NCBI RefSeq assembly: GCF_000060345.1
Contig: NC_008571.1
Span: forward strand, 3,042,501 to 3,106,500
Source: Christiangramia forsetii KT0803
GTDB lineage: Bacteria > Bacteroidota > Bacteroidia > Flavobacteriales > Flavobacteriaceae
Length of the DNA stretch: 64,000 bases
Direction of reading: 5' to 3'
Part shown: piece by piece, positions 29,866-47,109 of the stretch
Position numbering within the stretch: position 1 is the first letter of the stretch
Layout: each line of letters begins with the position of its first letter
Made by a program: the position numbers and the translations under genes
Notes under the pieces: generated by a model
The model's input: the letters and a program-made list of their open reading frames with translations, nothing else
What the model was told of the DNA's origin: nothing
Databases searched by the model: none

Positions 29866-31089
29866 TTAATTCAGAAAAAACTTAACTATCAATCCTCCCA
29901 CAAGCCATACATAGCAAATAAGAGCAAGGTATTTCAAAGTCTTTTCCAAAACTTCACTTTTCGGCGCCATCTCTTTCATAAACATGACATCATCTCTTTT
30001 AAAGAATCCCAGGTATAAAAGAAAGCCTGAAATTGCCAGAAAAACCATATTCAGCCAGAAGGTATAATTGATCTTGAAATATTCAGTATCCTGAATTTTT
30101 ACTGAAGATGGATCTGGTAAAGCTCCAAAAAGATCAAATCCGTAATGCAGAGCCAGAGAAGCTCCGATCAACGATGTGAACAGTAGAAAGAGAATAAAAA
30201 AGCTCATTTTCCATCCATAGTACTTTGCGTTGATCCTAAGGATGGGAAAAACCACCAGATCACTAAAAATAAAGGCCATTACTCCGGCAAAGCTGACTCC
30301 TTTTCCAAATAATAAGGCTGCCAGAGGAATGTTTCCCATAGAACCTATAAAAGTTATAAATGCCGCTAATGGCCCTACGATAACATGTTCCAGTATTGTA
30401 AAAAATCCAAAATCGGTAGTTCCCTGCCCGCTATTAATAAACAAGGTTTGAAAAAAAGAATCGGGAACAAAAGCGGCAACAATTCCGGCAATGGTAAAGC
30501 CTACGGTTACGTCTTTCCAAACCATCTTCCACTCCATCCCATATTGCTGAGAAACTTTGGCCCAGTTGGTCTCAGATTTCATTTTCTTTTTCCAGGATTT
30601 ATCAGAATTTTCATCATCATCGTCTTCACTATCCAATCGCTCCCTGGCCTTTTTTATAAGTTTTTTTGGATTTATCAGCCTTATCAATAACCAGCTTATA
30701 AGAATCAGGATGATACCACCCACATATTCGCCCACTACGAATTGCCAGCCCAGGAAAATTGAGATAATAATTCCCAGTTCTATCACAAGGTTGGTAGAAG
30801 CCAGTAAGAATCCTATGGAAGAAATAAAGCTCGCTCCTTTTTTAAACAAACTTTTTGTAGATGCAAGAGCTGCAAAACTACAGGAGCTGCTTATAAATCC
30901 GAAGAACGTTCCCAGTAATAAACCTCTAGATTCTTCCTGCCCCATAGTTTCCTGCATCCTTTTTTCGGTCACAAAAACCTGGATACAGCTACTTATAATA
31001 TACCCGAGTGCAAATGCCCATAAGGCCATCCAGAAAAATCCGCTGGTTGTATATGCGGCTTCGCCCCATTTGCTTAAAAAATCATTCAT
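29866..31089 (-). CDS. Predicted permease (PF03773-like)
   Basis: The 407-residue protein has about 8-10 membrane segments and a charged, acidic cytoplasmic loop in the middle (about 150-170, rich in Asp and Glu, with ERLDSEDDDDEN). A conserved-looking FISSSCSFAALAS motif (about 63-75) and GSMGNIPLAALLFGKG in the second half fit the YraQ/ArsP permease group, whose members export arsenicals, metals or unknown solutes. It is the last gene of the copper island and follows copA after a palindromic repeat, so a metal-related role is inferred from context only. Confidence 0.7.
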   Translation of the reverse strand: MNDFLSKWGEAAYTTSGFFWMALWAFALGYIISSCIQVFVTEKRMQETMGQEESRGLLLGTFFGFISSSCSFAALASTKSLFKKGASFISSIGFLLASTNLVIELGIIISIFLGWQFVVGEYVGGIILILISWLLIRLINPKKLIKKARERLDSEDDDDENSDKSWKKKMKSETNWAKVSQQYGMEWKMVWKDVTVGFTIAGIVAAFVPDSFFQTLFINSGQGTTDFGFFTILEHVIVGPLAAFITFIGSMGNIPLAALLFGKGVSFAGVMAFIFSDLVVFPILRINAKYYGWKMSFFILFLLFTSLIGASLALHYGFDLFGALPDPSSVKIQDTEYFKINYTFWLNMVFLAISGFLLYLGFFKRDDVMFMKEMAPKSEVLEKTLKYLALICYVWLVGGLIVKFFLN

Positions 31090-31272: not shown

Positions 31273-34020
31273 TTAATTCAACTTAGCACTTCTTAACCTC
31301 AACGCATTTCCAATAACAGAAACCGAACTAAAGCTCATCGCCAGTGCTGCGATCATTGGTGATAATAGCAATCCAAAGAATGGATACAATACTCCCGCTG
31401 CAATAGGGACACCTACGGTATTATAGATCAATGCGAAAAATAGGTTTTCTTTAATATTTCTCATCACTTTTTCGCTCAGCCTGATCGCTTTAAGAACACC
31501 TTTTAAGTCGCCTTTCACCAGGGTAACCTCAGCGCTTTCAATCGCCACATCGGTTCCGGTTCCCATGGCAATCCCAATATTTGCCTGCGCCAGGGCCGGA
31601 GCGTCATTTATACCATCTCCTGCCATGGCAACTTTTTTCCCTTCTCCCTGCAGTCTTTTAACCTCTTCCATTTTATCTTGAGGAACCATTCCTGCTTTAA
31701 AGTCGGCGAGACCGAGTTCTTTTGCAACGGCAGCGGCTGTCTTTTCATTATCACCGGTAAGCATCACCACCTTTATCCCTTCTTTTTGAAGTTCATGGAG
31801 CGCTTCCCTGCTGGTTTCTTTAATTTTATCTGAAATAGTTACAAATCCTACTATTTTTGAATTTACAGCGAGATACGAAACCGTTTTACCCTGTTCCTGT
31901 TCTGCAGTTACTTTCTTGTTGATCTCTTCGGAAATTTCAGCGTTTTCGACCTTCATCAATTTATCGTTTCCAAGAGCGAGCTGTTTTTCTTCAAATTTCG
32001 CCTCTACGCCTTTTCCTGTAACCGAATTAAAATCTGAAGCTTCTCCATATTCAATATTTTCAGCTTTAGCATATTTAACTGTTGCGGTTGCCAGAGGGTG
32101 TTCGCTTTGCGCATTTACTGAAGCGATCAAACGTGTAATTTCATCTTCGCTATATTCCGAAGAAACAGAAACGACTTTTTCTACAGAAGGTTTTCCTTCA
32201 GTAATCGTCCCCGTTTTATCAATAATAAGCGTATCTATCTGGTTCATTTCTTCAAGCGCACGTGCATTCTTGATCAAAACACCGTTTTTCGCACCTTTCC
32301 CTACCCCTACCATGACTGACATGGGTGTGGCAAGACCCAGCGCACATGGACAGGCTATGATTAGCACTGCAATGGCATTTACCAGCGCATACACATAAGC
32401 CGGATCTGGGCCATAGATAGCCCAGACTATAAAGGTAATTACCGAAATGGCTACTACTACAGGCACAAAATAAGCTGAGATTCTATCTGCCAGTTTTTGA
32501 ATGGGCGCCTGTGAACGACTGGCTTCATTTACCATTTTGATGATCTGGGCCAGAAGGGTTTCATCTCCCACTTTTTCGGCAGTCATGGTAAAACTTTGAT
32601 TTCCGTTAATAGTTCCGGAACTTACCTTATCTCCTTCTTTTTTATCAACGGGAATAGGCTCTCCGGTGATCATAGCTTCATCAATACTGGATTTTCCTTT
32701 CTTAATAGTTCCGTCTACGGGAATTTTATCTCCCGGCTTTACTCTTAAAATATCACCTTGCTGAATTTTATCTACAGAGATTGTTTCTTCATCCCCATCA
32801 ACCACTCTTACCGCGGTATTTGGAGCAAGTTTTAATAATTCCTTGATGGCTGAATTTGTCCTGCTATGAGCACGTGCCTCTAACACCTGCCCCATAAGAA
32901 CCAGCGTAAGAATCACCGTAGCTGCTTCAAAATAAACATGCACGGTTCCCATTTCAGTTTTGAATTGAGGAGGAAAAAAATCTGGAAATACTAATCCAAA
33001 TACGCTGAAGATCCAGGCGACTCCGGCACCAATTCCAATAAGGGTGAACATATTGAGGTTCCAGGTTTTGATGGAGCGGTAAGCACGTTCAAAGAACATC
33101 CAGGTAGCATAGAATACTACCGGAAGAGAAAGTCCGAATTGCACCCAGTTCCAGACCTTCATTCCGGCCAGATCATAAAGGGGATTGTCCGGGATCATTT
33201 CAGACATCGCAATTAGGAATATGGGCAGGGTAAAACCAACGGCAATCCAGAATTTTCGAAGTAATTTTTTATAACTTTTCTCTTCTGCTGAAGCTTCGGG
33301 CTCCATAGGAACCAGGTCCATCCCGCAAATTGGACAATCTCCCGGTCCATCCTCTACAATTTCCGGATGCATCGGGCAGGTATATTCCGTAGATTTCGGA
33401 GTTGCACTTACCTCTTCTACCAAATCCATCCCGCATACAGGACAGTCTCCGGGTTTATCATAGGTTTTATCGCCTTCGCAGTGCATAGGGCAATACCAGG
33501 TTCCCGTGCCTTTTTCTGGGTTCTTTTTCTTTTTATTTGAATGTCCGGCAGATTTTGACCTTTTTTCTCCCGGCTTCATTATATGATAATTTCCACCGTC
33601 TTTTTGAAGAGCATTTTCAAATTTTTCAATTTCGATATGCTCTTTCATACTGATCTCGGCCTCTTCTTTTTCTAAATTTACAGAAGCCTTTACAACGCCA
33701 TTAACGTCATTCAGAATTTTTTCCACATGAGAACGGCATCCATTACAGGTCATCCCGGTAATCTGATAGGTATGCTGCATCGGTTTTTCTGCAGAATTTT
33801 CAGCATCTTCCGGCATCGCGATATGATAATTCCCACCGTTTTTCTGAAGAGCCTCTTCAAATTTTTCAATTTTGATATGCTCTCTCATTTCAATCTCGGC
33901 TGCGGCTTTCTCCAGATTCACTGAAGCATTTAGTACTCCATCAACTTCACTTAAAGTTTTTTCTACATGAGCACGACAACCGTTGCAGGTCATTCCCGAA
34001 ATTTTATAATTATGTTTCAT
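31273..34020 (-). CDS. copA: Copper-translocating P1B-type ATPase
   Basis: The 915-residue pump exports Cu(I) from the cytoplasm using ATP. Domains in order are two HMA metal-binding domains (about 1-68 and 80-148, each with GMTCNGCR), two CPMH...CPxCGMDL metal-binding domains (about 175-240), and the eight-helix ATPase. The ATPase shows the membrane CPC motif (ACPCALGLATP, about 555), TGEPIP, phosphorylation site DKTGTITEGKP (Asp about 600), the HP motif in SEHPLATA, and GDGINDAPAL. It has a TAACTTTG promoter box at 34073-34080. The two HMA domains are near-duplicates at the DNA level. Copper specificity is inferred from CPC and neighbours. Confidence 0.96.
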   Translation of the reverse strand: MKHNYKISGMTCNGCRAHVEKTLSEVDGVLNASVNLEKAAAEIEMREHIKIEKFEEALQKNGGNYHIAMPEDAENSAEKPMQHTYQITGMTCNGCRSHVEKILNDVNGVVKASVNLEKEEAEISMKEHIEIEKFENALQKDGGNYHIMKPGEKRSKSAGHSNKKKKNPEKGTGTWYCPMHCEGDKTYDKPGDCPVCGMDLVEEVSATPKSTEYTCPMHPEIVEDGPGDCPICGMDLVPMEPEASAEEKSYKKLLRKFWIAVGFTLPIFLIAMSEMIPDNPLYDLAGMKVWNWVQFGLSLPVVFYATWMFFERAYRSIKTWNLNMFTLIGIGAGVAWIFSVFGLVFPDFFPPQFKTEMGTVHVYFEAATVILTLVLMGQVLEARAHSRTNSAIKELLKLAPNTAVRVVDGDEETISVDKIQQGDILRVKPGDKIPVDGTIKKGKSSIDEAMITGEPIPVDKKEGDKVSSGTINGNQSFTMTAEKVGDETLLAQIIKMVNEASRSQAPIQKLADRISAYFVPVVVAISVITFIVWAIYGPDPAYVYALVNAIAVLIIACPCALGLATPMSVMVGVGKGAKNGVLIKNARALEEMNQIDTLIIDKTGTITEGKPSVEKVVSVSSEYSEDEITRLIASVNAQSEHPLATATVKYAKAENIEYGEASDFNSVTGKGVEAKFEEKQLALGNDKLMKVENAEISEEINKKVTAEQEQGKTVSYLAVNSKIVGFVTISDKIKETSREALHELQKEGIKVVMLTGDNEKTAAAVAKELGLADFKAGMVPQDKMEEVKRLQGEGKKVAMAGDGINDAPALAQANIGIAMGTGTDVAIESAEVTLVKGDLKGVLKAIRLSEKVMRNIKENLFFALIYNTVGVPIAAGVLYPFFGLLLSPMIAALAMSFSSVSVIGNALRLRSAKLN

Positions 34021-34182: not shown

Positions 34183-34503
34183 TTATGCTGCATAAGCTTC
34201 ACAGGCACTTACACATTCTTTGCATGCTTTCGCGCAATCCTGGCAGTGCTTATGATCGTGTTTTCCGCATTCGTCAGCGCAGGCCTGGCAAACTTTTTTA
34301 CAGTAATCTACCAGTCCCTGTACATCCTTGTAATTAGTTGCCAGAACCTGGTTAAGCGTTGAACAAACTTCTGCACAAACCCTGTCAGTTCTAATACAGT
34401 CTTTCATCATTTTCACATTGTCTTCATCCAGACAGGCATCTGCACAATAATTACAATGGTTGATACAATTTCCTAATGCGCTAATTAATTTCTCATTTCT
34501 CAT
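34183..34503 (-). CDS. Four-helix-bundle copper-storage-like protein (DUF326)
   Basis: The 106-residue protein contains 16 cysteines spaced as CxxC, CxxxC and similar pairs along four predicted helices (for example CNYCADAC, CKKVCQACADEC, CQDCAKACKECVSAC), plus a HDHKH loop. This is the pattern of cytosolic Csp3-type proteins, which fill the bundle core with Cu(I)-thiolate clusters. No signal peptide is present, so cytoplasmic copper sequestration is inferred. It has a strong terminator and sits directly upstream of copA in transcription order. Confidence 0.9.
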   Translation of the reverse strand: MRNEKLISALGNCINHCNYCADACLDEDNVKMMKDCIRTDRVCAEVCSTLNQVLATNYKDVQGLVDYCKKVCQACADECGKHDHKHCQDCAKACKECVSACEAYAA

Positions 34504-34616: not shown

Positions 34617-35624
34617 TTAAGAGTTTTTTATGTCCACTAACTTCCAACTCCAACCGTCCTGCCGGACAAGTGTTTTAAACATTCTTCTGTTATAATCAAT
34701 ATCTTCTGGAAAATTATCATCTTTCAAATTATCAAAAATGAGTTCTTTTTCTAAAAGTTTTTTGATACCTGGAGATGGAGGCCCATGTTTCTCAGGGTTT
34801 ATGTGGGTGACTTCAGTAAGAACCTCAAAATAATTTTCGTAGGCGATCATCAGTGGCTTAATTTCTTTATACTCCGGTCTTATTTCCTCTTTTACTTGAT
34901 CTGAAATAATAATCAATGCCTCATAAAGTCTCGCCAGCTGAAGTATGATCGCATTTTTCTCTTTATTATTATGAAAATAATGGATCACAGGATAAGCGCG
35001 ATGCTGCTGACTGTATTTAATTATTGATTCTGAAATATCTTCAACTTTTTTGATGAAAGGTTCAAAATTTTCTCCGTTCCATCCACTAATTATTATTTCT
35101 TCGGGACTGCTGCCAAGTGTACTCAATCTAATTCCAAGTTTGCGCTGGTCTATTACTGCTGAAAGTACCGGAATAAAATAAGTAACAGACATGGTAAGAA
35201 GGATGAGGCCCGTAAAAGAATAAATGCTGGTCACTATTCGCCATAAATCTGTTGAGGCCACATAATCACCCATCCCCAGGGTTGATAGTGTAAAACCACT
35301 GTAATATGTAATTTGCCAGAAATTTGCAGGTACTTTTGTAGTGCTATCAATAATGGATGCTGGATGTGAATAAAGAATACAAACAAGACTTCCCCATAAC
35401 AATAACACCCAAATAAGGACGATAGAAATCAATAAAAAATAACCGCCGTGAGCCAGTATTTTTGCTTTGCCATTTCTTCCGGAAACTATCAGTAAAAGTT
35501 TCCAGAAGAGATGCGAAAATCTACTGGTCAACCATCCTCCACCCTGCATAGACAAAGTAGTTTGAAGAATATCAAGCACAATGGACAGATAGAGGATTAC
35601 CCCTATAAACAGTAAGATTTCCAT
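34617..35624 (-). CDS. Two-transmembrane potassium-channel-like protein
   Basis: The 335-residue protein has several N-terminal membrane segments (about 1-25, 55-80 and 130-155) and a pore-loop signature FTLSTLGMGDYV (about 112-123), followed by a large cytoplasmic C-terminal domain of about 170 residues with no recognised RCK/TrkA-N motif. The selectivity filter reads GMGD in place of the usual GYGD. Ion-channel membership is likely; ion specificity is uncertain. Its place inside a copper island is unexplained. Confidence 0.75.
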   Translation of the reverse strand: MEILLFIGVILYLSIVLDILQTTLSMQGGGWLTSRFSHLFWKLLLIVSGRNGKAKILAHGGYFLLISIVLIWVLLLWGSLVCILYSHPASIIDSTTKVPANFWQITYYSGFTLSTLGMGDYVASTDLWRIVTSIYSFTGLILLTMSVTYFIPVLSAVIDQRKLGIRLSTLGSSPEEIIISGWNGENFEPFIKKVEDISESIIKYSQQHRAYPVIHYFHNNKEKNAIILQLARLYEALIIISDQVKEEIRPEYKEIKPLMIAYENYFEVLTEVTHINPEKHGPPSPGIKKLLEKELIFDNLKDDNFPEDIDYNRRMFKTLVRQDGWSWKLVDIKNS

Positions 35625-35701: not shown

Positions 35702-36268
35702 TTAAACTGAATCCAGGCTTTTTCTATCTTTTACATGCCTGTTCTTATACTCTGAGGGAGTTATGCCGGTAGCCTTTTTAAAAGAAGTTGAAAGATATGC
35801 GGGGGTAGAATATCCTAAATTATCAGCGATCATTGCAATATTCCATTCATTATAATTCAATAACTCCTTGACACGTTCTACACGAACTGCATTATAAAAT
35901 TTCTGAATACTCTGCCCTTCACTCTCACTAAAAACGTGGGTAATATGGCTATAATCAAAATGCAACTCTTTAGTTAAAATGCTGGATAGTTTATGGTTAG
36001 AGGTATCGTTTGAGTAGACCTCCTCTATGATCACAGATTTGATAGAATTAATTAGTTTTTCATTTCGATCCTGAATAATTTCAAATCCAACCTGTTCAAA
36101 ACGTTTTTGGAGCTGATGAATTTCAATGCTGGTTAATTCCCTATTCAGGTTTGCCTCTCCTAAGCTAATTTTAGAAAAAGGAATTTCCAGATCCTGGAGA
36201 ATATCTTTGACCGTTATTATACAGCGCTGGCAAACAACATTCTTGATATGAAGAGGATAATTATTCAA
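35702..36268 (-). CDS. AraC-type regulator with N-terminal CxxC metal-binding-like domain (copy 1)
   Basis: The 188-residue protein combines an N-terminal segment of about 70 residues (IKNVVCQRCIITVKDIL, with CxxC at about 13-16, ending GFEII) that resembles an HMA/ferredoxin-like metal domain, and a C-terminal AraC double helix-turn-helix (about 115-180, VERVKELLNYNEWNIAMIADNLGYSTPAYLSTSFKKATG). It lacks a separate ligand-binding cupin. The natural inference is a one-component copper sensor acting as a DNA-binding regulator of this island. It follows a DUF3347 gene and a terminator; a perfect dyad lies 14 bases upstream of its start. Confidence 0.85.
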   Translation of the reverse strand: MNNYPLHIKNVVCQRCIITVKDILQDLEIPFSKISLGEANLNRELTSIEIHQLQKRFEQVGFEIIQDRNEKLINSIKSVIIEEVYSNDTSNHKLSSILTKELHFDYSHITHVFSESEGQSIQKFYNAVRVERVKELLNYNEWNIAMIADNLGYSTPAYLSTSFKKATGITPSEYKNRHVKDRKSLDSV

Positions 36269-36281
36269 AATTCTTGGTTTA

Positions 36282-36299
36282 TTGAACTAAAATTCAATT
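36282..36299. promoter_or_regulatory. Dyad upstream of the AraC copy 1 gene
   Basis: ATTGAA-CTAAAA-TTCAAT is a perfect 6+6 dyad just before the regulator gene. The 13-base word ATTGAACTAAAAT recurs upstream of the PepSY gene (37720-37732). It could be an operator, but it is AT-rich and a near copy also lies after valS, so support is weak. Confidence 0.3.
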
Positions 36300-36310
36300 A
36301 AAAATAATAA

Positions 36311-36337
36311 ATCAGGCTGAAACTTGTTCAGCCTGAT
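36311..36337 (-). terminator. Terminator of DUF3347 copy 1
   Basis: ATCAGGCTGAA and TTCAGCCTGAT form an 11-bp stem with a 5-base loop, followed on the minus strand by TTATTATTTTT. Confidence 0.85.
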
Positions 36338-36347
36338 CCACAATTAT

Positions 36348-36917
36348 TTACATGATGGTTTCTTCAACACGACCACACTTAAGCATTTTATCTCCAAAAT
36401 ATGGGTTTCTAATTTCTTCTGAATTTGAATACCAGAAATCCCCTTTTCCTTCAAAGGCCATTGGGCAGAACTGCTTATAGATCTTTCCTGAAGAAATAGC
36501 TTCTTTAAGTACCGGCTCCATAGCCGCAGTTAATTCTGAAAAGACCTCTCTTTGCTGATTGATATTCTCTGTAGCTACCATTCTACCGGCAATTTTAGCG
36601 ATCTCCGGTCTGGCTTCGTTTAAGGTATTTCTTAAGTTTTCTGCTGACTTTCGGCTAGCTGAAGCATCAGTTCTAACCAGAGCATCTTTTACAGCCAGAT
36701 ACTCTTCAAAAGCCTGTTTTACCTTTTCATTACTAAATTCAGCAGGTACCTCTTTCATTGGTTTTTCATCATCCATTTCTTTAGAATCCTGACTCATTTC
36801 ATGATGATCTTCAGCAACAGTTTCCTCTTTCTCCTTTTTAGAATCTGCACAAGAAGAAAGAATTAAACTTCCTGCAATTAAACTCATCGTTATTAAACTT
36901 CTTACTTTCATTTTCAT
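36348..36917 (-). CDS. DUF3347 lipoprotein (copy 1)
   Basis: The 189-residue protein has a lipobox (LILSSCAD, Cys about 23), a short acidic/Met/His linker (HHEMSQDSKEMDDEKPM) and one DUF3347 domain (about 65-189). The domain begins as a helical bundle and ends with the conserved block YKQFCPMAF...GDFWYS...IRNPYFGDKMLKCG. The CPM and CG cysteines plus nearby Met and His suggest a copper site. The same domain occurs in the 41819 gene and at the C-terminus of the CusB-like adaptor. Role inferred: periplasmic copper binding. Confidence 0.85.
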   Translation of the reverse strand: MKMKVRSLITMSLIAGSLILSSCADSKKEKEETVAEDHHEMSQDSKEMDDEKPMKEVPAEFSNEKVKQAFEEYLAVKDALVRTDASASRKSAENLRNTLNEARPEIAKIAGRMVATENINQQREVFSELTAAMEPVLKEAISSGKIYKQFCPMAFEGKGDFWYSNSEEIRNPYFGDKMLKCGRVEETIM

Positions 36918-36972
36918 TTTTATGATTATTTACTATTGATATTTGACGTATTTATATGTTAATGATAACAAT

Positions 36973-37695
36973 CTATTTTTTATTCTTCTTTTTTGGCTGA
37001 ATAATCTTTCTAACGGTTGGGGAAGAGATGTACCAGAGTAAAAATCCGCTTAAAACCGTAATAAGACCAAGCAAAGAAAAGCTTCTAAGCAGGAGATTAT
37101 TAAAATCATCCCTTCCTTCGTAATCCATTGTGTGCGTCATCCAAAGAAAATCAAACCAGCGCCAGTCCCTGTGACGCACGCTTTTAAAATTTCCTGTCAA
37201 AGCGCCTACGTAGGCCTTTAGGTTCTCATCGGTATCATAGGAAATCACATATGCAGGCAGCAAATTTTCACGATATTCGTGATGCTTACCTGTTTCAGTT
37301 ATCCTCTGGATTCCGGATACTTCCAGATCTGCTCTCATATATCTTGAGGCTATATCAAGGGCCTGTTGCTTACTAATCTCATCAATTTTTTCTCCAGAAC
37401 GCGCATCCATTAATATTTTATTATTGATATAATAGAACGGCTGCCCTGAGATCTCCTGAAGTTTTACAGAAGTAACCCGTAGTTCCGGATCCAGTACTGT
37501 TGGACTCTTAAGGTCTGAAAAAGATGATTGAACCGGCTTCTCTTTTTTAAACTGATCACCATGTATCTCATCAAGGTCTGTCCAGCTAAAATAGAGTCCG
37601 CTTACCGTCCACATGATGAACTGTATCCCAATGAATAGTCCCAAATAACGATGGGCTTTCCTGATATTGAGTGCTGTTTTTCGTTTTACGATCAT
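36973..37695 (-). CDS. PepSY-domain membrane protein
   Basis: The 240-residue protein has an N-terminal membrane helix starting with the PepSY_TM signature RKAHRYLGLFIGIQF (about 12-35). It has a periplasmic region with PepSY-like strands (about 85-150) and a second C-terminal helix (about 200-225) with LLGLITVLSGFLLWY. Related proteins are associated with iron and copper reductases or cuproprotein assembly. It is in a run with the DUF2231 and DUF3347 genes; a copper-related membrane role is inferred from context. Confidence 0.82.
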   Translation of the reverse strand: MIVKRKTALNIRKAHRYLGLFIGIQFIMWTVSGLYFSWTDLDEIHGDQFKKEKPVQSSFSDLKSPTVLDPELRVTSVKLQEISGQPFYYINNKILMDARSGEKIDEISKQQALDIASRYMRADLEVSGIQRITETGKHHEYRENLLPAYVISYDTDENLKAYVGALTGNFKSVRHRDWRWFDFLWMTHTMDYEGRDDFNNLLLRSFSLLGLITVLSGFLLWYISSPTVRKIIQPKKKNKK

Positions 37696-37771
37696 TTATT
37701 TCAATGGTAGGTTATCTAGATTTTAGTTCAATAAAATATTCATACTTAAAAAACCAAAGCCATTTTTATAT

Positions 37772-38473
37772 TTAATGAGAATGGGCTCCATTGTTTTCAG
37801 ACTCCAGGTATTCTCCCTGTGGCCCTACTCCTTCAATATAAACCAGTTGTGCCCCATAATGGCCTGCTTCTGAAACAGAATAGGCCGCAAATCCAAGAAT
37901 TAAAAAAACCACTATTTCAAAAATTCGATTCTTTTTCAATAGAAATAAACTTACTAATTTTAAAGTTGCAGCGACAGCACTGGAATAAATAGTCCACTCA
38001 GCAAATTTATCGTGCTGTGCTAGTACACTTTTTGCCATTTCAGTTAGGTCATGTACGTGCGGGTGCGCATATACTCCGGCAATATAAGCCCCTATAAAAC
38101 CGAAGCCCACACATAATAAAATAACCCAATCAAGATTTCGCTTTAGCACGAATATTTGAATAAGTTGAAGGATTCCTCCCAACAACAACAGTACGATTGG
38201 GAAATGGACTATTAGTGGATGTAAATTTGGAAAATCGTCCAGCTCAGCTTTTACTTTGTTAGAGGACTTCTCTTTACTTTCACCTTGATAGCCTCCCTCA
38301 TTTTCAGCATCCTGTAATTCAGGTTGTGCAGTGATTGTATCTTGTTCCAATTCCTGTTCAGCAGTATTGGTCGAGTGATCATGACCTTCATGATTATCCT
38401 GAGCTTGTGTCGCAAGCGTTAGGGTGCTAAAAAAGAATAATATGTATAATTTTTTCATCATATAAGTTTTCAA
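37772..38473 (-). CDS. DUF2231 membrane protein with His-rich N-terminus
   Basis: The 233-residue protein has a signal segment (about 5-24, ending TQAQ), a His/acid-rich linker (DNHEGHDHS), and four membrane helices beginning with the DUF2231 signature LHPLIVHFPIVLLLLGG (about 83-99). Further histidines occur in YAHPHVHDL and at the C-terminus (NGAHSH). Metal or haem contact is plausible. An ATG 12 or 15 bases further in would give a cleaner signal peptide and may be the real start. It lies downstream of a structured 5' region at 38513-38578. Confidence 0.8.
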   Translation of the reverse strand: MKTYMMKKLYILFFFSTLTLATQAQDNHEGHDHSTNTAEQELEQDTITAQPELQDAENEGGYQGESKEKSSNKVKAELDDFPNLHPLIVHFPIVLLLLGGILQLIQIFVLKRNLDWVILLCVGFGFIGAYIAGVYAHPHVHDLTEMAKSVLAQHDKFAEWTIYSSAVAATLKLVSLFLLKKNRIFEIVVFLILGFAAYSVSEAGHYGAQLVYIEGVGPQGEYLESENNGAHSH

Positions 38474-38512
38474 TATAACTCCTTGGAAGGAGCGACAAAA
38501 ACGATTAATTGC

Positions 38513-38578
38513 AGGAAAAATGGAGAGAATATATTATTCTCAACTAATTACTATTAAAACGACTCTCTCCTTTTTCCT
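38513..38578 (-). promoter_or_regulatory. Alternative hairpins in the leader of the DUF2231 gene
   Basis: AGGAAAAA and GGAGAG (38513-38527) pair with CTCTCC and TTTTTCCT (38565-38578) across a long loop. Within the loop, GAGAATA and TATTCTC (38525-38541) form a second hairpin that shares bases with the first, so the two are mutually exclusive. Such an arrangement could control read-through from the multicopper oxidase gene or translation of the DUF2231 gene. This is inference from structure only. Confidence 0.45.
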
Positions 38579-38752
38579 TGCATTTATTTATAATCTTATA
38601 AGTTTCTAAAAAAACCGAAAGTCTCACATGGTGCTCATCGTAAATCTTCTCAATTTTTCCCTTTTCCTATTTTTATGAACCTCTTCTTCAGTCTCTCTAT
38701 AAGAAAAGCATTTCCGGGATTTTAAATTCTCAATCCTTCCTATTGAAATTCT

Positions 38753-41179
38753 TTAAAACTTGAAGGACAATCCTCCTCCAGCTCCAAACCTATTATCGTA
38801 ACTACCCATTAGAGAAAAATTCTTTGATAGAAAATACTCCAGTCCGGCACTCCAGGTTTGTTCATTTTCAAAATCTTTTCCTTCTTCCAGGTCATTTACC
38901 CATCCAAAATCTGCCTGAAATTCATACTCTCCAAAAACAGCCAATCTTGGAAAAATCATAATTTCCCTCGCAAGACTAATCTGGGGTCTTAGTTTACTAT
39001 CTAAACGTACATCGAGCGAAAACATATAGGGGGTGAAATATCTAAGTCCCCCAATTGCAGTGGTACTTAGCTCATCCATACTGTTTTCCATTTCATTTTC
39101 TACATTCACACCTCCGAATAATCGTACCCAGTCATTGATATAATATTCATAAGAAAATTCAGCTTCCAGGTTCTGGTTCCATCCATACTCTGCCAATGCT
39201 GTAAATTGATTTCTAACATTTGAGCTAACAACATTCAATTCAGTCATATGCGACGCCGCATCCAGCATTCCCCAGGTATAGAATTTATTGGTTTCCCTAA
39301 CCAGATTACTAACAGGAAAGGGTTCCATCCGTTCATCTCTCTTAGTATCATAGCTTACTATTCTGGCCATTCCTGCATCCATGTGATATAGTATATGGCA
39401 ATGAAAAAACCAGTCACCATACTCATTTCCATAAAACTCTATGGTGACCTCCTGCATAGGCGGCACATTTACGGTGTGTTTAAGAGGTGAATATTCTCCA
39501 TTTTTATTAAGAACTCTAAAGAAATGCCCGTGTAAATGCATTGGGTGATGCATCATGGTTAGATTATTAAAAGTAATACGGGTAACTTCATCACCTTTAA
39601 TTTTTATCTTATCTGCTTCAGATAGCGTCACTCCGTTCATACTCCATATATACCTGTTCATGTTTCCTGTTAAATTCAGTAATACATTGGTCACAGGAAT
39701 GCTATCGTTAAACTCTGTCTTCTCCGGAGCTTTTAAATAATCATAATTATATTCTGAAAACATATCCATTCCCTGCATGCCTTCCTTAGAATCTTTTTTC
39801 ATTTCGCTCATGCCATTCATTTCCTGATTTGGTTTATCAGAATTGGACATTTTCATAGTGTCATTCTTCATTTTCATTTTTGAGTGATCCATTTGAGAAT
39901 GATCCATTTTCGCCATAGATGAATCTTTTTCCATCTTCATTTTTGAATGATCCATCCCGGAGTGATCCATTTCAGGATTTTGTTTTTTATCCTCCATCTT
40001 CATCCCCCCGTGATCCATGTTATCCATCTGCATGCCCCACTTTTCTTTAAGTTTATAGGGTTCTGGATGATTAGGGCGGGATTGCAATGCAGGAGCACCC
40101 ATCTTCATATCCATCTTTGCCATTTTCTGCATCATTCCAATCTTATCGGGGCGAGGTACATCCGGCGCCGGCAGGACTTCTCCCTGCCCGAGAAACGCAG
40201 AAGCAGTTCCTGAACCATCCTGGGCCATAATTTTAAATTCCATTTTTCTATTTTCTGGAATTTCTACAATAAAATCATAAGTTTCAGCTACCCCTATAAA
40301 TGTTTTATTGCGTTTCACCGGAACTACATTTTTTCCATCAGCAGAAACCAATGTCGGCGTCTCGCCTCCAAACGTCATCCAGAACGAAGTAGAGGCTGAA
40401 CCATCAATAATTCGCAACCTTACTTTTTCTCCAGGTTTAAATTCAGGATATTCAATTTTTTCCTCTCCGTTAATCAGGAACGCGGGATAATATATATCTG
40501 CAATGTCAGCGCCTTCCATACGCTGCCTCCAAAAATCTAATTGGGCACCAAAAGCTCCACGCTTAATTACCTGGTTAAGCGGAGTGGCAGTTCCTTTTTT
40601 AATATTATACCATTCAGTTCCTCTTTTTAAAAATCGAAGTACATCTTTTGGTTTCTCGTTAGTCCAGTCTGAAAGTACTAAGACAAGATCTTTATCATAC
40701 TCCAGTTCTTTTTCCTTTGGATGAATTAAAAGAGAACCAAAAACACCGCTTTGCTCCTGTAACATGGTATGGGAATGGTACCAATAGGTTCCATTTTGTT
40801 TTATCTCAAATTCATATTTAAAGGTAGTTCCTGGTTTAATTGGAGGAGTTGTAAGATAAGGTACTCCATCAAAAAAGTTTGGAAGCAACATTCCATGCCA
40901 GTGAATGGAAGTTTCCACATCCATCTTATTCTCCACATAAATCACTGCATACTCCCCTTCGGTAAACTCCAGCGTTGGCCCGGGAATTCCTCCGTTCACT
41001 GTCATGCCCATTACTTCTTTACCGGCTTTATTTACTTTTTCCTGGTCAATGGTAAGTTGGTATTCCCGTACCGGCAGGTCATTTACATTACCTTCCACCG
41101 AGGCTTCCAATTCTTGCTGCGCATATCCTGTAACTCCAACAATCAAGATTAAGATTAGTAGATAATTTTTCAATATCAT
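38753..41179 (-). CDS. Multicopper oxidase fused to a CopB-like outer-membrane barrel
   Basis: The 808-residue protein has a signal peptide (about 1-20) and three cupredoxin-type domains with copper ligands HWHGMLLPN (about 88), YWYHSHTML (about 133), HHPMHLHGHFFRV (about 546) and HCHILYHMDAGM (about 592). This is a PcoA/CopA-type Cu(I) oxidase. Between domains 2 and 3 is a Met/His-rich segment (about 383-468) with repeated DHSKMKM and DHGGMKM words. After the oxidase, residues about 625-808 read as beta-strands ending GGGLSFKF and look like the CopB/PcoB barrel (EYGWNQNLEAEFSYEYYINDWVRLF). Fusion of the two normally separate proteins would tether the oxidase to the outer membrane. Confidence 0.9.
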   Translation of the reverse strand: MILKNYLLILILIVGVTGYAQQELEASVEGNVNDLPVREYQLTIDQEKVNKAGKEVMGMTVNGGIPGPTLEFTEGEYAVIYVENKMDVETSIHWHGMLLPNFFDGVPYLTTPPIKPGTTFKYEFEIKQNGTYWYHSHTMLQEQSGVFGSLLIHPKEKELEYDKDLVLVLSDWTNEKPKDVLRFLKRGTEWYNIKKGTATPLNQVIKRGAFGAQLDFWRQRMEGADIADIYYPAFLINGEEKIEYPEFKPGEKVRLRIIDGSASTSFWMTFGGETPTLVSADGKNVVPVKRNKTFIGVAETYDFIVEIPENRKMEFKIMAQDGSGTASAFLGQGEVLPAPDVPRPDKIGMMQKMAKMDMKMGAPALQSRPNHPEPYKLKEKWGMQMDNMDHGGMKMEDKKQNPEMDHSGMDHSKMKMEKDSSMAKMDHSQMDHSKMKMKNDTMKMSNSDKPNQEMNGMSEMKKDSKEGMQGMDMFSEYNYDYLKAPEKTEFNDSIPVTNVLLNLTGNMNRYIWSMNGVTLSEADKIKIKGDEVTRITFNNLTMMHHPMHLHGHFFRVLNKNGEYSPLKHTVNVPPMQEVTIEFYGNEYGDWFFHCHILYHMDAGMARIVSYDTKRDERMEPFPVSNLVRETNKFYTWGMLDAASHMTELNVVSSNVRNQFTALAEYGWNQNLEAEFSYEYYINDWVRLFGGVNVENEMENSMDELSTTAIGGLRYFTPYMFSLDVRLDSKLRPQISLAREIMIFPRLAVFGEYEFQADFGWVNDLEEGKDFENEQTWSAGLEYFLSKNFSLMGSYDNRFGAGGGLSFKF

Positions 41180-41197
41180 TTTATTTTTTTTAAAGTA

Positions 41198-41258
41198 CTG
41201 TCAAAATCAGCGCAGTCGAAGTTTTACAAGAGCCTTCCAATGCGCTTAGGCTGACATG
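41198..41258. repeat. Degenerate palindromic repeat upstream of the oxidase gene
   Basis: CTGTCA...GCGCAGTCGAAG is followed by a decayed partner CTTCCAATGCGCTTAGGCTGACA. It is a degraded copy of the same repeat family as 48676-48729 and 47237-47262. Confidence 0.65.
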
Positions 41259-41295
41259 AGTAATAATAAAATTGTTAAACACACTTTATTATTTA

Positions 41296-41787
41296 TCAAT
41301 TTTCATTTTCCAGACGGTAGATAATCTTCTTCATCTGGGCAATTTCTCGTTTCTGTGCTTCAATGATCTCCTCGGCCAGTTTTTTAGTCTCGGGATCTTT
41401 TAAATCGGCTCTTTTACTGGTTAATACCGCAATAGAATGGTGAGGTATCATCGCTTTCATATACAAAACATCTCCAATTATGGGTCTCTGTGCTCTCACT
41501 AAACCTAATGCACTTACGAACAAAACAAGGCTCCCTACATAAATGGCGATATTTTTTTTCCTATTCTTATACATATTTAACATGAGGGATAACATGATTA
41601 CTGCCATAGCAGCAATACCCAAACAGGTCATGTAAAACCGGGTTAGACTAAAGTAAACATGGTCAAATTCATAAGTATTCAAATACATTGTGATATACAT
41701 GGCTACAAATGATAGTCCAAGCATAAGAAAGAATTTGCCGTAATTGTTTCCTTTCATACTGTCATGTTTTTTGTCTTCTGAATTCAT
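41296..41787 (-). CDS. DUF305-like membrane protein
   Basis: The 163-residue protein has three membrane segments (about 15-35, 45-70 and 77-97) and a C-terminal helix pair (about 103-163) starting with MKAMIPHHSIAVLTSKRA, the DUF305 hallmark MIPHH. The histidine pair and Met residues suggest metal contact. Members are frequently found with copper-resistance genes. It lies between the oxidase and DUF3347 copy 2 in the same orientation with a 31-base gap to the latter. Confidence 0.85.
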   Translation of the reverse strand: MNSEDKKHDSMKGNNYGKFFLMLGLSFVAMYITMYLNTYEFDHVYFSLTRFYMTCLGIAAMAVIMLSLMLNMYKNRKKNIAIYVGSLVLFVSALGLVRAQRPIIGDVLYMKAMIPHHSIAVLTSKRADLKDPETKKLAEEIIEAQKREIAQMKKIIYRLENEN

Positions 41788-41818
41788 TTTGTTGGTTTTA
41801 TGGTTGGTATAATAAAAT

Positions 41819-42367
41819 TTACTTTTTAATGGTTTTCTTTACAGATCCACAATTCAGCATCTTTTCCCCGAAATAAGGATTTCTTATTTCTTCCACATCT
41901 GCATACCAGTAAGCTCCTTTATTATTAAAGGCCATTGGACAGAATTTTTTATAAATAGCTCCGCCAGACAAGGCCTCTTCAAACATTGGCCCTGCTTTTT
42001 CGGTAAATTTTGAAAATAATTCCCGCTGTTTTTCTATGTCATCGGTGCTGGCTATCTGCCCGGCAATAGATTTCATCTCTGCCCGTTCTTCGGTAAAAGA
42101 TTCTTCCATGCTCTTAGCAACATCTTTAACCTGGCTGGCATCTGCATTGGTCAAAGCCAATTTCATCTCCAGATAATTATGCCATATTTTCCCGGTCATT
42201 CCATCTTTAAAATCCTGATCGGCCACATCTACCGTCTCCTTTTCTGCCTTTTTAACCTCTTCAGGGCTATTTATCTCCACTGACTGTTTACCTTTATTAT
42301 CCACACAAGACGTAAATACAATGGCTGTAAACAGAATAGCAAACAGATTTAATATTTCTCTTTTCAT
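41819..42367 (-). CDS. DUF3347 lipoprotein (copy 2)
   Basis: The protein has a lipobox (IVFTSCVD, about residue 18 from the start used here) and a DUF3347 domain ending YKKFCPMAFNNKGAYWYA...IRNPYFGEKMLNCGSV. It is closely similar to copy 1 and to the end of the CusB-like adaptor. The start at 42367 (MKREILNL) gives a proper lipoprotein signal; a longer frame from 42409 adds 14 residues that spoil it. It follows the second CxxC-AraC gene. Confidence 0.85.
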   Translation of the reverse strand: MKREILNLFAILFTAIVFTSCVDNKGKQSVEINSPEEVKKAEKETVDVADQDFKDGMTGKIWHNYLEMKLALTNADASQVKDVAKSMEESFTEERAEMKSIAGQIASTDDIEKQRELFSKFTEKAGPMFEEALSGGAIYKKFCPMAFNNKGAYWYADVEEIRNPYFGEKMLNCGSVKKTIKK

Positions 42368-42442
42368 TTTTTGATTAGTTTTAATTAAGTATCTAAAATA
42401 CAGGTTCACAAAGCCTTAGATTGTTATAATTTCTTGAAACTT

Positions 42443-43012
42443 CTATAAAATTTGGTCTAAAGAATTTCTAAAATTTTGGTTTAACGTCTTATATTCAGTG
42501 AGACTCATACCGGTTTCAGTCTTAAATTGCCTGGACAGATGATTCACATTACTGTAATCCAGCAACTGACTCATTTGTGTGAAATTATATTCCTTTGACT
42601 GAATAAGTTCCTTTACTTTTTCGATTTTCAGCTTTATAAAATACTTCTCTACGGTAGTATTTTCGGTATAAGAAAAAATCCTGCTCAAACGTGAATAATC
42701 ACTGTCGGTCTCTTCAGAAAGATAATTGGATAAAGTGCCGGTCTTTTGAATAGGCAGGTTTTCCAGAAGTCGAATAAGACATAATTTAACCTGTTCCACC
42801 AGAATCCTGTCACTGCTCTGCAATAATTCAAAGCCATTTTCATGAAGAACTTTGTGCAGTTTCTTTTCATGCACTTCCCTGTTTTCACTCTCATACACTA
42901 CCCGCCCCAACTCTACAAGTTTAATATCGAGCCCGGCCTCAATTAGCTCATTCCTTACTACTTTTATGCAGCGGTCACAAACCATATTTTTTATAAAGAC
43001 TTCTATCATCAT
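42443..43012 (-). CDS. AraC-type regulator with N-terminal CxxC metal-binding-like domain (copy 2)
   Basis: The 189-residue protein has the same two-part plan as copy 1. It has an N-terminal segment with IKNMVCDRCIKVVRNEL (CxxC at about 12-15) ending in GFELL, a helical linker, and an AraC helix-turn-helix (about 120-178, IEKVKELIQSKEYNFTQMSQLLDYSN). The two copies share IKNxVCxRCI and HEKKL/HQLQK-like positions but differ widely elsewhere, so the duplication is old. Inferred to be a copper-responsive regulator. It is next to DUF3347 copy 2, mirroring the pair at 35702-36917. Confidence 0.85.
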   Translation of the reverse strand: MMIEVFIKNMVCDRCIKVVRNELIEAGLDIKLVELGRVVYESENREVHEKKLHKVLHENGFELLQSSDRILVEQVKLCLIRLLENLPIQKTGTLSNYLSEETDSDYSRLSRIFSYTENTTVEKYFIKLKIEKVKELIQSKEYNFTQMSQLLDYSNVNHLSRQFKTETGMSLTEYKTLNQNFRNSLDQIL

Positions 43013-44191: not shown

Positions 44192-45886
44192 TTATAAAGT
44201 TTTAGTTGTTTCCCCACAATTCAGCATCGCTTCGCCGTAATATGGATTTTCAATGTTTTTGGAAAGGCTTAACCAATCGGCACCCTTATTACTGTTTGCC
44301 ATCGGGCAGTGTTGCAGGTAAATAGTGGAATCTAATTTCTCTACATTCCCGGCAACCAAAATCATTTGCTGTGAAAGAATTCTGAAATGATCCCGTTGAT
44401 TTTCCAGTTTCTCATTTTCTGAAATTCCTTCAAGCATTTCCCTGATCTTCCCTATATGTCCTGAGAGCATTTCAGAAGAACCTTCGATATTGATCTTTTC
44501 AGTTTTCTGAAGTAATTCTAAAGCGATCGCTGAAGTTTTATCGGCATCAGAAGCTACCAGAGCATCTTTCAATTCAAAATAAGAAGGCAATAGCTGTTTA
44601 AACTGAGACTGGAAAGCATTTGAAAGTTTCATTTCCATTCCCATTTCAGAATCCATCTCTACTTTTTGATTCATCATACTGGATTTTCCCTGAAGCTGGG
44701 CCGCGGCATCCACCGTAAAAGTTCCGTTGGTCACCACTTCTTCACCGCTACTTAAACCTTCAAGAACCTGATAGGTTTCGCCACTGGAATTCCCTAGTTT
44801 CACTTCCCTCATTTCAAAAACAGGCTCTGTAGCACTGGTTTTTACATAGACCAAAGAACGTTCCCCCGTCCACATAACGGCGCTTTTTGGAACTTCAAGA
44901 CTTTCATTACTTGATTTAGAAGTGCTTTCAACTGCTGCCTGAACAAACATCCCGGGTTTCAGTTGATTATTGCTGTTATTTAAAACCACCCTAACCTCCA
45001 CCGTTCTGGACGCATTGTCCAGTATAGGATTGATAAAAGAAATTTTTCCGCTGAAATTTTCATTGGGAATCGCGTTTATAGAAATATCTAAATCCTGGCC
45101 TTCTTTTAAATTGGAGATCTGCGATTCATAGGCATCAAATACAGCCCAAACTTTATCAAGATTCGCGATCTTCAGTAAGCCCTGACCTCTCTCCACATAA
45201 TCTCCTTCCTGAACCATTTTTTCAGTAACAACGCCTGAAACATTGGAATACACGGGGAAATTTTCAGTTACCTGTCCGGAACTTTCAATTTGATTGATCT
45301 GATTATCTGAAAGTTTCCAGAATTTTAGCTTATTACGTACCGCGTTGTAAAGAGAAGGCTGAGACTCTTTTAACTTTGCAGCGGTGATCAATTCCTGCTG
45401 GGCTGCCACCAGTTCCGGTGAATAAATTCTAGCCAGAAGGGCTCCTCTATTCACTTTTTCGCCAGTAGAGCTTATATTAAGGTTTTCAATTCTTCCGCCT
45501 ACATGGGAAGACTGAACACTGTTTTGATCTTCACTCTCCATGATCTTTCCTGAAAGCGTAATTTTTCCATCAATTCCGTTACCCTGGCCCACAATGCTGG
45601 TCTGGATATTGGCAAGTTTCATGGCATTTTCGGTCATGCTAATTTCATCAGCTCCCAGTCCGTCTGAACTTGCATCAGCAGGAATAAGATCCATTCCACA
45701 AATAGGACAATCGCCCGGTTCGGGTTGCATAATCTGCGGGTGCATGGAACAGGTCCACATAGTTTCAGTTTCTCCCTGCTCATGCTCGTGATTCGCAGTT
45801 TTTTCTTCAGAAGAATTGCCAAAAAACAGATACCCCAGAAGAAGGCCTGCGATCAAAATTCCAATGTATATGATTATTTTTTTCAT
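44192..45886 (-). CDS. cusB: CusB-type RND efflux adaptor with C-terminal DUF3347 domain
   Basis: The 564-residue membrane-fusion protein has an N-terminal membrane anchor (about 5-25) and a metal-binding WTCSMHPQI...GDCPICGMDL segment (about 44-70). The barrel-sandwich/helical hairpin/beta-barrel body follows (about 95-400, with VVTEKMVQEGDYVERGQ and VWAVFDAYESQI). An appended DUF3347 domain (about 430-564) ends YLQHCPMANSNKGADWLS and NPYYGEAMLNCG. It bridges the CusA pump and the outer-membrane channel for Cu(I)/Ag(I) export. The extra domain presumably delivers or senses copper. Confidence 0.93.
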   Translation of the reverse strand: MKKIIIYIGILIAGLLLGYLFFGNSSEEKTANHEHEQGETETMWTCSMHPQIMQPEPGDCPICGMDLIPADASSDGLGADEISMTENAMKLANIQTSIVGQGNGIDGKITLSGKIMESEDQNSVQSSHVGGRIENLNISSTGEKVNRGALLARIYSPELVAAQQELITAAKLKESQPSLYNAVRNKLKFWKLSDNQINQIESSGQVTENFPVYSNVSGVVTEKMVQEGDYVERGQGLLKIANLDKVWAVFDAYESQISNLKEGQDLDISINAIPNENFSGKISFINPILDNASRTVEVRVVLNNSNNQLKPGMFVQAAVESTSKSSNESLEVPKSAVMWTGERSLVYVKTSATEPVFEMREVKLGNSSGETYQVLEGLSSGEEVVTNGTFTVDAAAQLQGKSSMMNQKVEMDSEMGMEMKLSNAFQSQFKQLLPSYFELKDALVASDADKTSAIALELLQKTEKINIEGSSEMLSGHIGKIREMLEGISENEKLENQRDHFRILSQQMILVAGNVEKLDSTIYLQHCPMANSNKGADWLSLSKNIENPYYGEAMLNCGETTKTL

Positions 45887-45891
45887 CTTTA

Positions 45892-47109
45892 TTAATTATT
45901 TACAGTAAGGTATTCTACGATAGCATCTTTTTTAAACCAGGTGCTCACCGCTTCTACAAGGTTCATTTGTACCTGTAGTTGTATTTCCTGAATATCCAGG
46001 ACGTCATCAAAATCTATGGTTCCCGTTTCGTATTGTTTCAGTAATAATTCCTCGGCATCTCTGGCCTGGGAAAGATTATCTGTTTGAACCTCAAATTTGA
46101 TCCTGGAAGAAGCACGTTCATTCAATGCTGATCTTAATCTGCTTTCCAGTTCGTTTAAGGCTGAAGTTCTATCAGATGAAATTTGATCCTGCCGCAATTC
46201 ATTTTGCCTGGATACAGAACGATATTTTTTATTGAAAATAGGTACCGAAACAGATAGCATTGGCATAATAATGTCCTTTCCATTATCCGGGATATTCATA
46301 TCGGTTCGTTCCTGAACGCCTATATAATCAAGTCCGAATCCCAATTTTGGAGCTGCTTCCTGCTTATTTACCAGTTCAGAATTTTCAATACTTTCAGCAA
46401 ATCTGTCATAAAGCTGTAACTCGGGATGCAATGTTAAATTCATATTTTCAGACTCTTTCAAAGGAATCACTAAAGTATCCTGAACATTAATCTGCGTGTT
46501 ATCATCAACATTTAATAGATTATTAAACTGTGTTTGTTTAGCCTCTTTCTGAAGTTGAAAATTCTCTTTTTTCTCAAGTAGATCATTTTGTCTCATTTTG
46601 AGTCTGAGCACTTCCACCGCTGAAGCTTTTCCTACCTCAACAGAATTTAGAGCCATCGTTCTATATACTTCCAGAAGATCGATATTTTGCTGTAATACCT
46701 CTATTTTTTCCTCAATTTCATAAATATCAAAATAGAGCTGAGATACTTCTAATTTCAATTGTCTCTGTGCTATTTCAAGATCAACCTCCTCTATATCTAC
46801 CATAGAACCGGCATAATCCATTCTGGACTGGATAGTTCCAAACCAGGGAATCATTTGTCTTACCGAAACTCTCATTTTTTGAGCCCCGGTTCTGGTTTCC
46901 GGCTCGCTTATAAAATAGCCTGCTCCAAATTCGGTGTCGGGAATTGAATTCACTTCATTGATTCTTTCCTCTGCAATCGCAACATTTTGCTGCAAGGATT
47001 GAATTTGAGGATTATTATCCAGAGCCTGATTTTGGTAGGTTTGGAGTTGCTGAGCATGAATAAATCCAGTTCCTGCCAGGATAAATATTATTAAAATCAG
47101 TTTTTTCAT
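45892..47109 (-). CDS. cusC: TolC-family outer-membrane efflux channel (CusC type)
   Basis: The 405-residue protein has a signal peptide (about 1-19, ending IHAQ) and the repeated long helical hairpins of outer-membrane efflux proteins. Examples are LQTYQNQALDNNPQIQSLQQ, the VGKASAVEVLRLKMRQNDL region (about 160-180) and the ETGTIDFDDVLDIQ repeat near the C-terminus. It lies 5 bases before cusB in transcription order. Together with cusA and cusB it forms a three-part heavy-metal exporter. Confidence 0.92.
   Translation of the reverse strand: MKKLILIIFILAGTGFIHAQQLQTYQNQALDNNPQIQSLQQNVAIAEERINEVNSIPDTEFGAGYFISEPETRTGAQKMRVSVRQMIPWFGTIQSRMDYAGSMVDIEEVDLEIAQRQLKLEVSQLYFDIYEIEEKIEVLQQNIDLLEVYRTMALNSVEVGKASAVEVLRLKMRQNDLLEKKENFQLQKEAKQTQFNNLLNVDDNTQINVQDTLVIPLKESENMNLTLHPELQLYDRFAESIENSELVNKQEAAPKLGFGLDYIGVQERTDMNIPDNGKDIIMPMLSVSVPIFNKKYRSVSRQNELRQDQISSDRTSALNELESRLRSALNERASSRIKFEVQTDNLSQARDAEELLLKQYETGTIDFDDVLDIQEIQLQVQMNLVEAVSTWFKKDAIVEYLTVNN

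Follow-up and report, generated by a model that had tools for sequence, protein, structure and literature searches.

In the 64,000-nucleotide stretch of Christiangramia forsetii KT0803 DNA analysed here (contig NC_008571.1, positions 3,042,501 to 3,106,500; hereafter the window), two genes, A and B, are located on the minus strand within an island of copper genes. Their products join a short N-terminal segment carrying a CxxC motif to an AraC-type DNA-binding domain, and our results suggest that they probably act as copper regulators of the AraC type, with an HMA domain as the sensor. The two genes and the parts of their products are as follows (E, strand; H, helix; pLDDT, predicted local distance difference test, mean; pTM, predicted template-modelling score).

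35702..36268, minus strand: protein A, HMA-AraC regulator, 188 aa (HTH_18 E 7e-17; AlphaFold2 pLDDT 94.3, pTM 0.87)
36074..36259, minus strand: HMA-like domain at the N-terminus of A, approximately residues 4-65 (E4-9 H14-26 E31-35 E38-41 H47-59 E63-65)
36221..36232, minus strand: CxxC of A (C13, C16), read from the sequence, with Val at the usual Met position two residues before the first Cys
35738..35977, minus strand: AraC-type DNA-binding domain of A, residues 98-177 (HTH_18 match)
42443..43012, minus strand: protein B, HMA-AraC regulator, 189 aa (HTH_18 E 2e-10; AlphaFold2 pLDDT 92.7, pTM 0.83)
42821..43009, minus strand: HMA-like domain at the N-terminus of B, approximately residues 2-64 (E2-8 H13-25 E29-34 E37-41 H45-58 E62-64; Foldseek, short matches with domains of CopZ, Atx1 and CopA)
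42968..42979, minus strand: CxxC of B (C12, C15), here as part of MxCxxC (sequence; hhalign register)
42488..42712, minus strand: AraC-type DNA-binding domain of B, residues 101-175 (HTH_18 match)

Protein A begins at a TTG codon and carries the motif IKNVVCQRCI, and protein B begins at ATG and carries IKNMVCDRCI; the two share 32% identity over 184 aligned positions. For the AraC-type half, the Pfam model HTH_18 (PF12833) matched both proteins above its cut-off of 33.6 bits (61.9 bits for A and 41.4 bits for B), and Foldseek matched 3oio, AraT 6swi, 3mkl and MarA 1bl0. With a limit of E 1, Pfam listed no cupin family for either protein, and on that listing an identity as cupin-type AraC proteins was rejected. 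A sequence-only reading of this DNA had placed both open reading frames (ORFs) at the same positions and described an IKNxVCxRC(I) segment joined to an AraC DNA-binding region in proteins that lack a cupin domain; the ORFs and the Pfam results agree with it on each of these points and add the strand, which that reading did not give. Two further members of the regulator family are encoded in the host genome (3.80 Mb), one (at 1291683) sharing 76% identity with B and the other (at 1383308) 47%. The closer of the two is located in a second copper island (L044, 1282001-1302000), with a histidine kinase gene about 10 kb away (1280609-1281505). The nearest named relatives of A that were found belong to Christiangramia (Flavobacteriaceae, Bacteroidota), with at most 86% identity.

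AlphaFold2 models, built from 56 family sequences for B and 48 for A, predicted for both proteins a beta-alpha-beta-beta-alpha-beta domain followed by seven helices, with CxxC in the beta1-alpha1 loop. In these models the HMA-like domain of about 65 residues is fused straight to the first helix of the seven-helix MarA/AraC-type domain. Among the 50 Foldseek matches listed of 692, all eight short ones (61-71 columns) were HMA proteins, namely CopZ 2qif (two chains) and 6ff2, TM0320 2kyz, Atx1 2xmv, the CopA domain 3fry, MerP 1osd and ZiaA 2ldi, with target-normalised template-modelling scores of 0.63-0.75, probability 1.00 and weak E values of 0.017-0.09. A profile of the regulator family, searched against the PDB with hmmsearch, matched over positions of about 3-69 the copper domains of ATP7B 2ew9 (E 8e-6) and Bacillus CopA 1p6t (E 1.5e-5); CopZ 6ff2 followed at E 2e-4 and the zinc protein ZiaA lower, at E 0.03. 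When the N-terminal domains with CxxC were compared by hhalign with 60 HMA domains of CopA-type ATPases, they aligned end to end with MxCxxC in register at 95.4% (E 2e-8), a value partly built in because CxxC was the selection rule for both sets; 20 column shuffles reached a maximum of 4.7%. N9, C12, C15 and G36 were invariant in an alignment of 56 members, which had been selected by a rule that included the cysteines and, in part, N9, but not G36. A chance motif was rejected, since CxxC keeps one fixed position in a conserved domain. The predicted models and profile comparisons indicate that the N-terminal segment is homologous to copper HMA domains, and the likeness to an HMA domain proposed from the sequence alone thus also passed the check for a ferredoxin-like fold.

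The neighbourhood of the family was then compared across genomes. With a limit of E 1e-12, B had a match in 76 of 149 Flavobacteriaceae genomes, and 100 stretches around part of those matches were taken together with the loci of the own genome and of Christiangramia. The 112 members in these loci, among which B-like relatives are over-represented because B was the query, comprised 82 with CxxC (in 77 stretches), 11 with SxxC and a further 19 that lack CxxC. Met stands two residues before the first Cys in 75 of the 82. Neighbours were labelled by phmmer with the window's own proteins, so that the label CusB may cover other proteins with its small metal-binding domain. The results showed that a gene for CopA, CusB or a multicopper oxidase lies within 9 kb of 78 of the 82 CxxC members, whereas none of the 30 members without CxxC has one; below 75% identity the same copper set was near 53 of 56 and 0 of 22, respectively, and leaving out the own genome and Christiangramia it was near 70 of 74 CxxC members. 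L072 and L098 fall outside this strict set, yet a CusA/CusC or HMA gene is present there. Around the 30 members without CxxC, two RND pumps, two Csp-like proteins and one HMA protein were found. The first Cys is lost in all 30 and the second is kept in 27. These members are the SxxC paralogues (L114-L122, L124 and L125) and the others without CxxC (L126-L128 and L130-L145); the domain is kept, and both Cys are lost in three.

In a tree of 104 rows, with the motif columns retained and a midpoint root for drawing only, the SxxC and other members without CxxC formed one nested group of 27 rows. The CxxC members L194 and L110, both without copper genes, lie just outside that group, and L103, with copper genes, comes next. 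Since the relatives without CxxC form one lineage, the contrast in copper context amounts to one evolutionary event: loss of the motif and loss of the copper context go together, as one event, and p-values computed for the contrast are too strong for that reason.

Gene order around the regulators was also examined. Within 5 kb, 281 of 291 copper-type neighbours are on the regulator's strand; CopA starts 540-900 nt past the regulator start in 28 CxxC members, and in 14 members a cusC-like ORF ends 1-4 nt ahead of the regulator. CPC, YNx4P and MxxSS are marks of Cu(+) P1B-1 pumps. Among ATPases long and complete enough to score, all three motifs were present in 38 of 43 from CxxC loci and in 9 of 13 outside Flavobacteriaceae.

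In the wider Bacteroidota, the regulator-family profile matched at E 1e-15 or better in 143 of 296 genomes, a count in which CxxC and non-CxxC members are not separated. Twenty-four loci outside Flavobacteriaceae (20 + 4), chosen among high-scoring matches and all with CxxC, were inspected, and in 18 of them CopA, CusB or a multicopper oxidase is nearby (phmmer limit E 1e-4); L188 has an HMA gene only. A plasmid search gave 30 records with the regulator from ten genera, and in 26 of the 30 it is annotated merely as an AraC or helix-turn-helix protein. Six of these records, from six genera that are Bacteroidota by their records, were inspected (the other four genera we take to be Bacteroidota too), and all six carry CxxC and adjoining copper-type genes in the public annotation. 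The neighbours there include P-type ATPases, Cus genes, oxidases and copper-binding proteins; the copper sign is a bilirubin oxidase on the Spirosoma plasmid, and DUF3347 with a Cu/Zn exporter on the Aureibacter plasmid. The HMA-AraC fusion therefore sits among copper genes across Bacteroidota, and the link to copper genes in other genomes, on which the sequence-only reading depended, was recovered in Flavobacteriaceae, outside them and on plasmids alike.

In the window itself, every island gene between 51537 and 29866 lies on the minus strand. In the direction of transcription the order is the small Cys-containing protein, CusA, CusC, CusB, DUF4440-like, DUF2911, B, DUF3347, DUF305/CopM-like, multicopper oxidase, DUF2231, PepSY_TM, DUF3347, A, ion channel, Csp1-like, CopA and ArsP_1-type permease. 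The features identified around A and B are listed below.

29866..31089, minus strand: ArsP_1-family permease at the island end (Pfam E 2e-55)
31273..34020, minus strand: CopA-type copper P-type ATPase with two HMA and two HMBD stretches (Pfam)
34183..34503, minus strand: Csp1-like Cys-rich protein, possibly for copper storage (NCBIfam TIGR04401 E 2e-11, below cut-off; DUF326)
34617..35624, minus strand: Ion_trans_2 channel between A and the Csp1-like gene (Pfam E 2e-9)
36307..36341, minus strand: terminator-like hairpin of 15 pairs between the DUF3347 gene and A (fold z -5.6)
36348..36917, minus strand: DUF3347 gene upstream of A (Pfam E 4.5e-11)
38753..41179, minus strand: multicopper oxidase of the copper-resistance type (NCBIfam TIGR01480 E 1e-123, below cut-off; Pfam)
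41296..41787, minus strand: DUF305/CopM-like gene (Pfam, NCBIfam)
41819..42409, minus strand: DUF3347 gene downstream of B (Pfam E 2e-9)
44192..45886, minus strand: CusB-like adaptor with a C-terminal DUF3347 domain (NCBIfam, Pfam)
45892..47109, minus strand: CusC/TolC-like outer-membrane factor (Pfam)
47296..51057, minus strand: CusA-like RND pump (Pfam)
51145..51537, minus strand: small Cys-containing protein at the head of the cus cluster (no Pfam match at E 0.01)

A starts 79 nt downstream of one DUF3347 gene, B ends 33 nt upstream of another, as expected from the sequence-only reading, and the gap between the DUF2911 gene and B is 26 nt. A terminator-like hairpin stands just upstream of A, and A therefore probably heads or restarts its own transcription unit, although the total count of terminator-like sites did not exceed that in shuffles. 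Hairpin-like sequences with other letters were seen by eye at this place in the Christiangramia/Gramella relatives L009, L011, L012 and L013. The two DUF3347 proteins and the C-terminus of CusB have in common, by eye, the ending CPMA...W...I.NP..G..ML.CG, which may be a metal-binding module of the periplasm. Next to the cus cluster, on its upstream side (51634-52619, minus strand), are an exosortase-like gene (52071-52619; weak Pfam match, below cut-off) and a gene for a small hydrophobic protein.

By reading the starts of cus operons, we found an element TGTTAA-N26/27-TAnnTTTG, placed as one might expect of an activator site. Of 41 operon heads in which the small Cys-containing gene comes before cusA, 18 have it (L047, L048, L054, L056, L058, L061, L063, L066-L070, L072, L074, L077, L079, L091 and L104), against none of 16 other genes of that type; by eye, a second TGTTAA sometimes follows 18-19 bp further on. 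A genome-wide pattern search was unspecific, giving 1 to 8 matches in each of 15 genomes, similar to a reversed control, and dyad counting over the intergenic DNA of copper loci returned promoter-like words only. The element is absent from the window's own cus head, and it is present at the head of a cus-copA operon in G039 (L207), a genome without an HMA-AraC regulator, where the match was chosen because its letters resemble the full element. We regard it as a conserved promoter element of cus operons rather than a proven operator of the regulator family, and on these two grounds it is no more than a lead as an activator site.

Other candidates for copper sensing were also searched. Among the 20 ORFs scanned between 29866 and 52619, Pfam found A and B as the only proteins of DNA-binding families, with no MerR, CsoR, response-regulator or kinase match, in agreement with the earlier statement that the island holds no CueR, CsoR or CusR/S gene; for CusR, these 20 ORFs are the extent of the search. 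In the whole genome, the CueR model had nothing over cut-off, CopY (TIGR02698) gave three weaker matches with none over cut-off, and CopS (TIGR01386) gave 25 kinase matches with none over cut-off. One CsoR-family match over cut-off was found (L196:3016-3408), located with a Csp-like gene in a mercury-resistance-like cluster (L196, 1368001-1373500); by eye it has no obvious copper ligands. On both grounds this CsoR-like protein was rejected as the island's sensor; its cluster is about 12 kb from another HMA-AraC copper locus. Across the 296 Bacteroidota genomes, CueR (TIGR02044) was over cut-off in none, and weaker matches in 178 (best 137.6 bits against 147.4) indicate that CueR-like relatives are present in some. 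CsoR matches occurred in 10 of 143 genomes with the AraC family and in 77 of 153 without, a comparison confounded because 65 of the 77 come from one taxonomic family that has no AraC match. The CopA type of this island, counted at E 1e-200 or better, was found in 59 of 76 Flavobacteriaceae genomes positive for the regulator family (the 59 including relatives without CxxC) and in 26 of 73 negative ones. Because these 26 genomes and the cus operon of G039 do without the regulator, copper genes can run in its absence, and the HMA-AraC regulator is not the sole way these bacteria run them.

From these results, we consider it likely that A and B belong to the AraC family and control copper-export genes as one-component regulators, with Cu(I) held by the CxxC of the HMA domain. 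The two cysteines in the CxxC loop would hold cytosolic Cu(I); this may alter the packing of the HMA domain on the DNA-binding domain or form a bridge between two monomers, and the copper-loaded protein would activate its own operon as well as the cus, copA and multicopper-oxidase genes around it. Because the fusion appears to leave no other dimerisation domain, a bridged dimer is an attractive possibility. The identity of the metal, Cu(I) as the signal, activation over repression and the target promoters are what we infer in this scheme.

Several observations weigh against it. Besides the selection built into the hhalign value, the comparison with HMA domains fell to 10.1% for the SxxC set and 4.4% for the set without CxxC; the Pfam HMA model (PF00403) was unlisted for A and B up to E 1 and reached E 0.1 or better in 14 of 56 members (best 1.8e-4), single-sequence matches were weak (CopZ E 0.19, 3fry E 0.46), and protein A has Val for the Met of MxCxxC. 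In the comparative data, several of the 82 CxxC members have an island in common with another, the contrast with members lacking CxxC reflects a single event, and copper genes are absent near L101 and L110 of the 82 and near L190, L193, L194, L198 and L199 of the 24 (two of them on short contigs). The distribution of the promoter element and the 26 family-negative genomes with this CopA belong to the same side.

We consider it unlikely that the signal for the HMA domain is thiol oxidation or a thiophilic metal other than copper (Zn, Cd, Hg, Ag), with copper operons as just one output. Disulfide formation and binding of other metals are both possible in CxxC loops, MerP and ZiaA are among the structural matches, and a few members are solitary or near other genes; however, the neighbouring ATPases mostly carry the Cu(+) motifs, multicopper oxidases, CusABC and copper-storage-like proteins are among the neighbours, and the top sequence matches are copper domains. 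We regard as quite improbable, too, that the HMA domain is a docking or dimerisation module and that another component, such as a two-component system, senses the copper, with the AraC protein as an auxiliary. The domain is kept without CxxC (98.3% in hhalign between the CxxC set and the set without it), the second Cys usually with it; G039 has the promoter element and no regulator, CopA persists in family-negative genomes, and one of the 25 CopS-model kinase matches is about 10 kb from the second copper locus, whereas the strict copper set is confined to the CxxC members of the Flavobacteriaceae sample. That the regulators are passengers on mobile copper islands and control something else would fit their presence on plasmids and several solitary members, but is very improbable given the cusC-like ORFs that end just before the regulator, the same-strand bias of copper neighbours and the recurrence of the copper link outside Flavobacteriaceae.

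Returning to copper sensing by the CxxC domain, a wider proposal would make the family the general cytosolic Cu(I) sensors of much of Bacteroidota, in which direct fusion to a MarA-type DNA-binding domain has made a sensor of a copper-chaperone domain, acting as Cu(I)-bridged CxxC dimers on repeated cus/copA promoter sites in the niche of CueR and CsoR; we offer it tentatively and with considerable doubt. Cytoplasmic copper sensing in Bacteroidota looks unsettled. A 2024 genome survey of one Flavobacteriaceae species describes MerR and CopY-family proteins without copper sites and ArsR-family proteins as possible cytoplasmic regulators, and the word AraC does not occur in it (PMC11213822). With a family that is widespread and has both an evident metal-binding loop and testable neighbours, the question would become directly answerable, and the known metal sensors would gain an AraC-HMA design. 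The family has good prospects of becoming a named family of metal sensors.

Compared with known systems, the N-terminal domain resembles HMA domains (PF00403: CopZ, Atx1 and the N-terminal domains of CopA and ATP7B) in predicted fold, in the first-loop CxxC, mostly as MxCxxC, and in significant profile matches; it differs in being fused to an AraC DNA-binding domain, in having Asn before Met where the HMA consensus has Gly, and in that most members fall below Pfam detection. The C-terminal half resembles AraC/MarA-type domains (PF12833) as a seven-helix domain over the Pfam cut-off, but its sensor half is HMA-like instead of a cupin and no separate dimerisation domain is present. CueR, CsoR, CopY and CusRS would share with A and B an apparent copper-linked control of copA and cus genes but are of other protein families; A and B matched none of them in Pfam, CsoR (PF02583) being unlisted for both, in line with the distinct sensor design proposed from the sequence. 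Ada likewise joins cysteine-metal chemistry to an AraC-type DNA-binding domain, but it works by Zn-held alkyl transfer and is not known to have the HMA fold. No description of an AraC-HMA copper regulator was found among titles and abstracts of the open-access literature, subscription journals being mostly beyond that search. The parts are known, and what appears new, judged from sequence, is their combination as a copper regulator.

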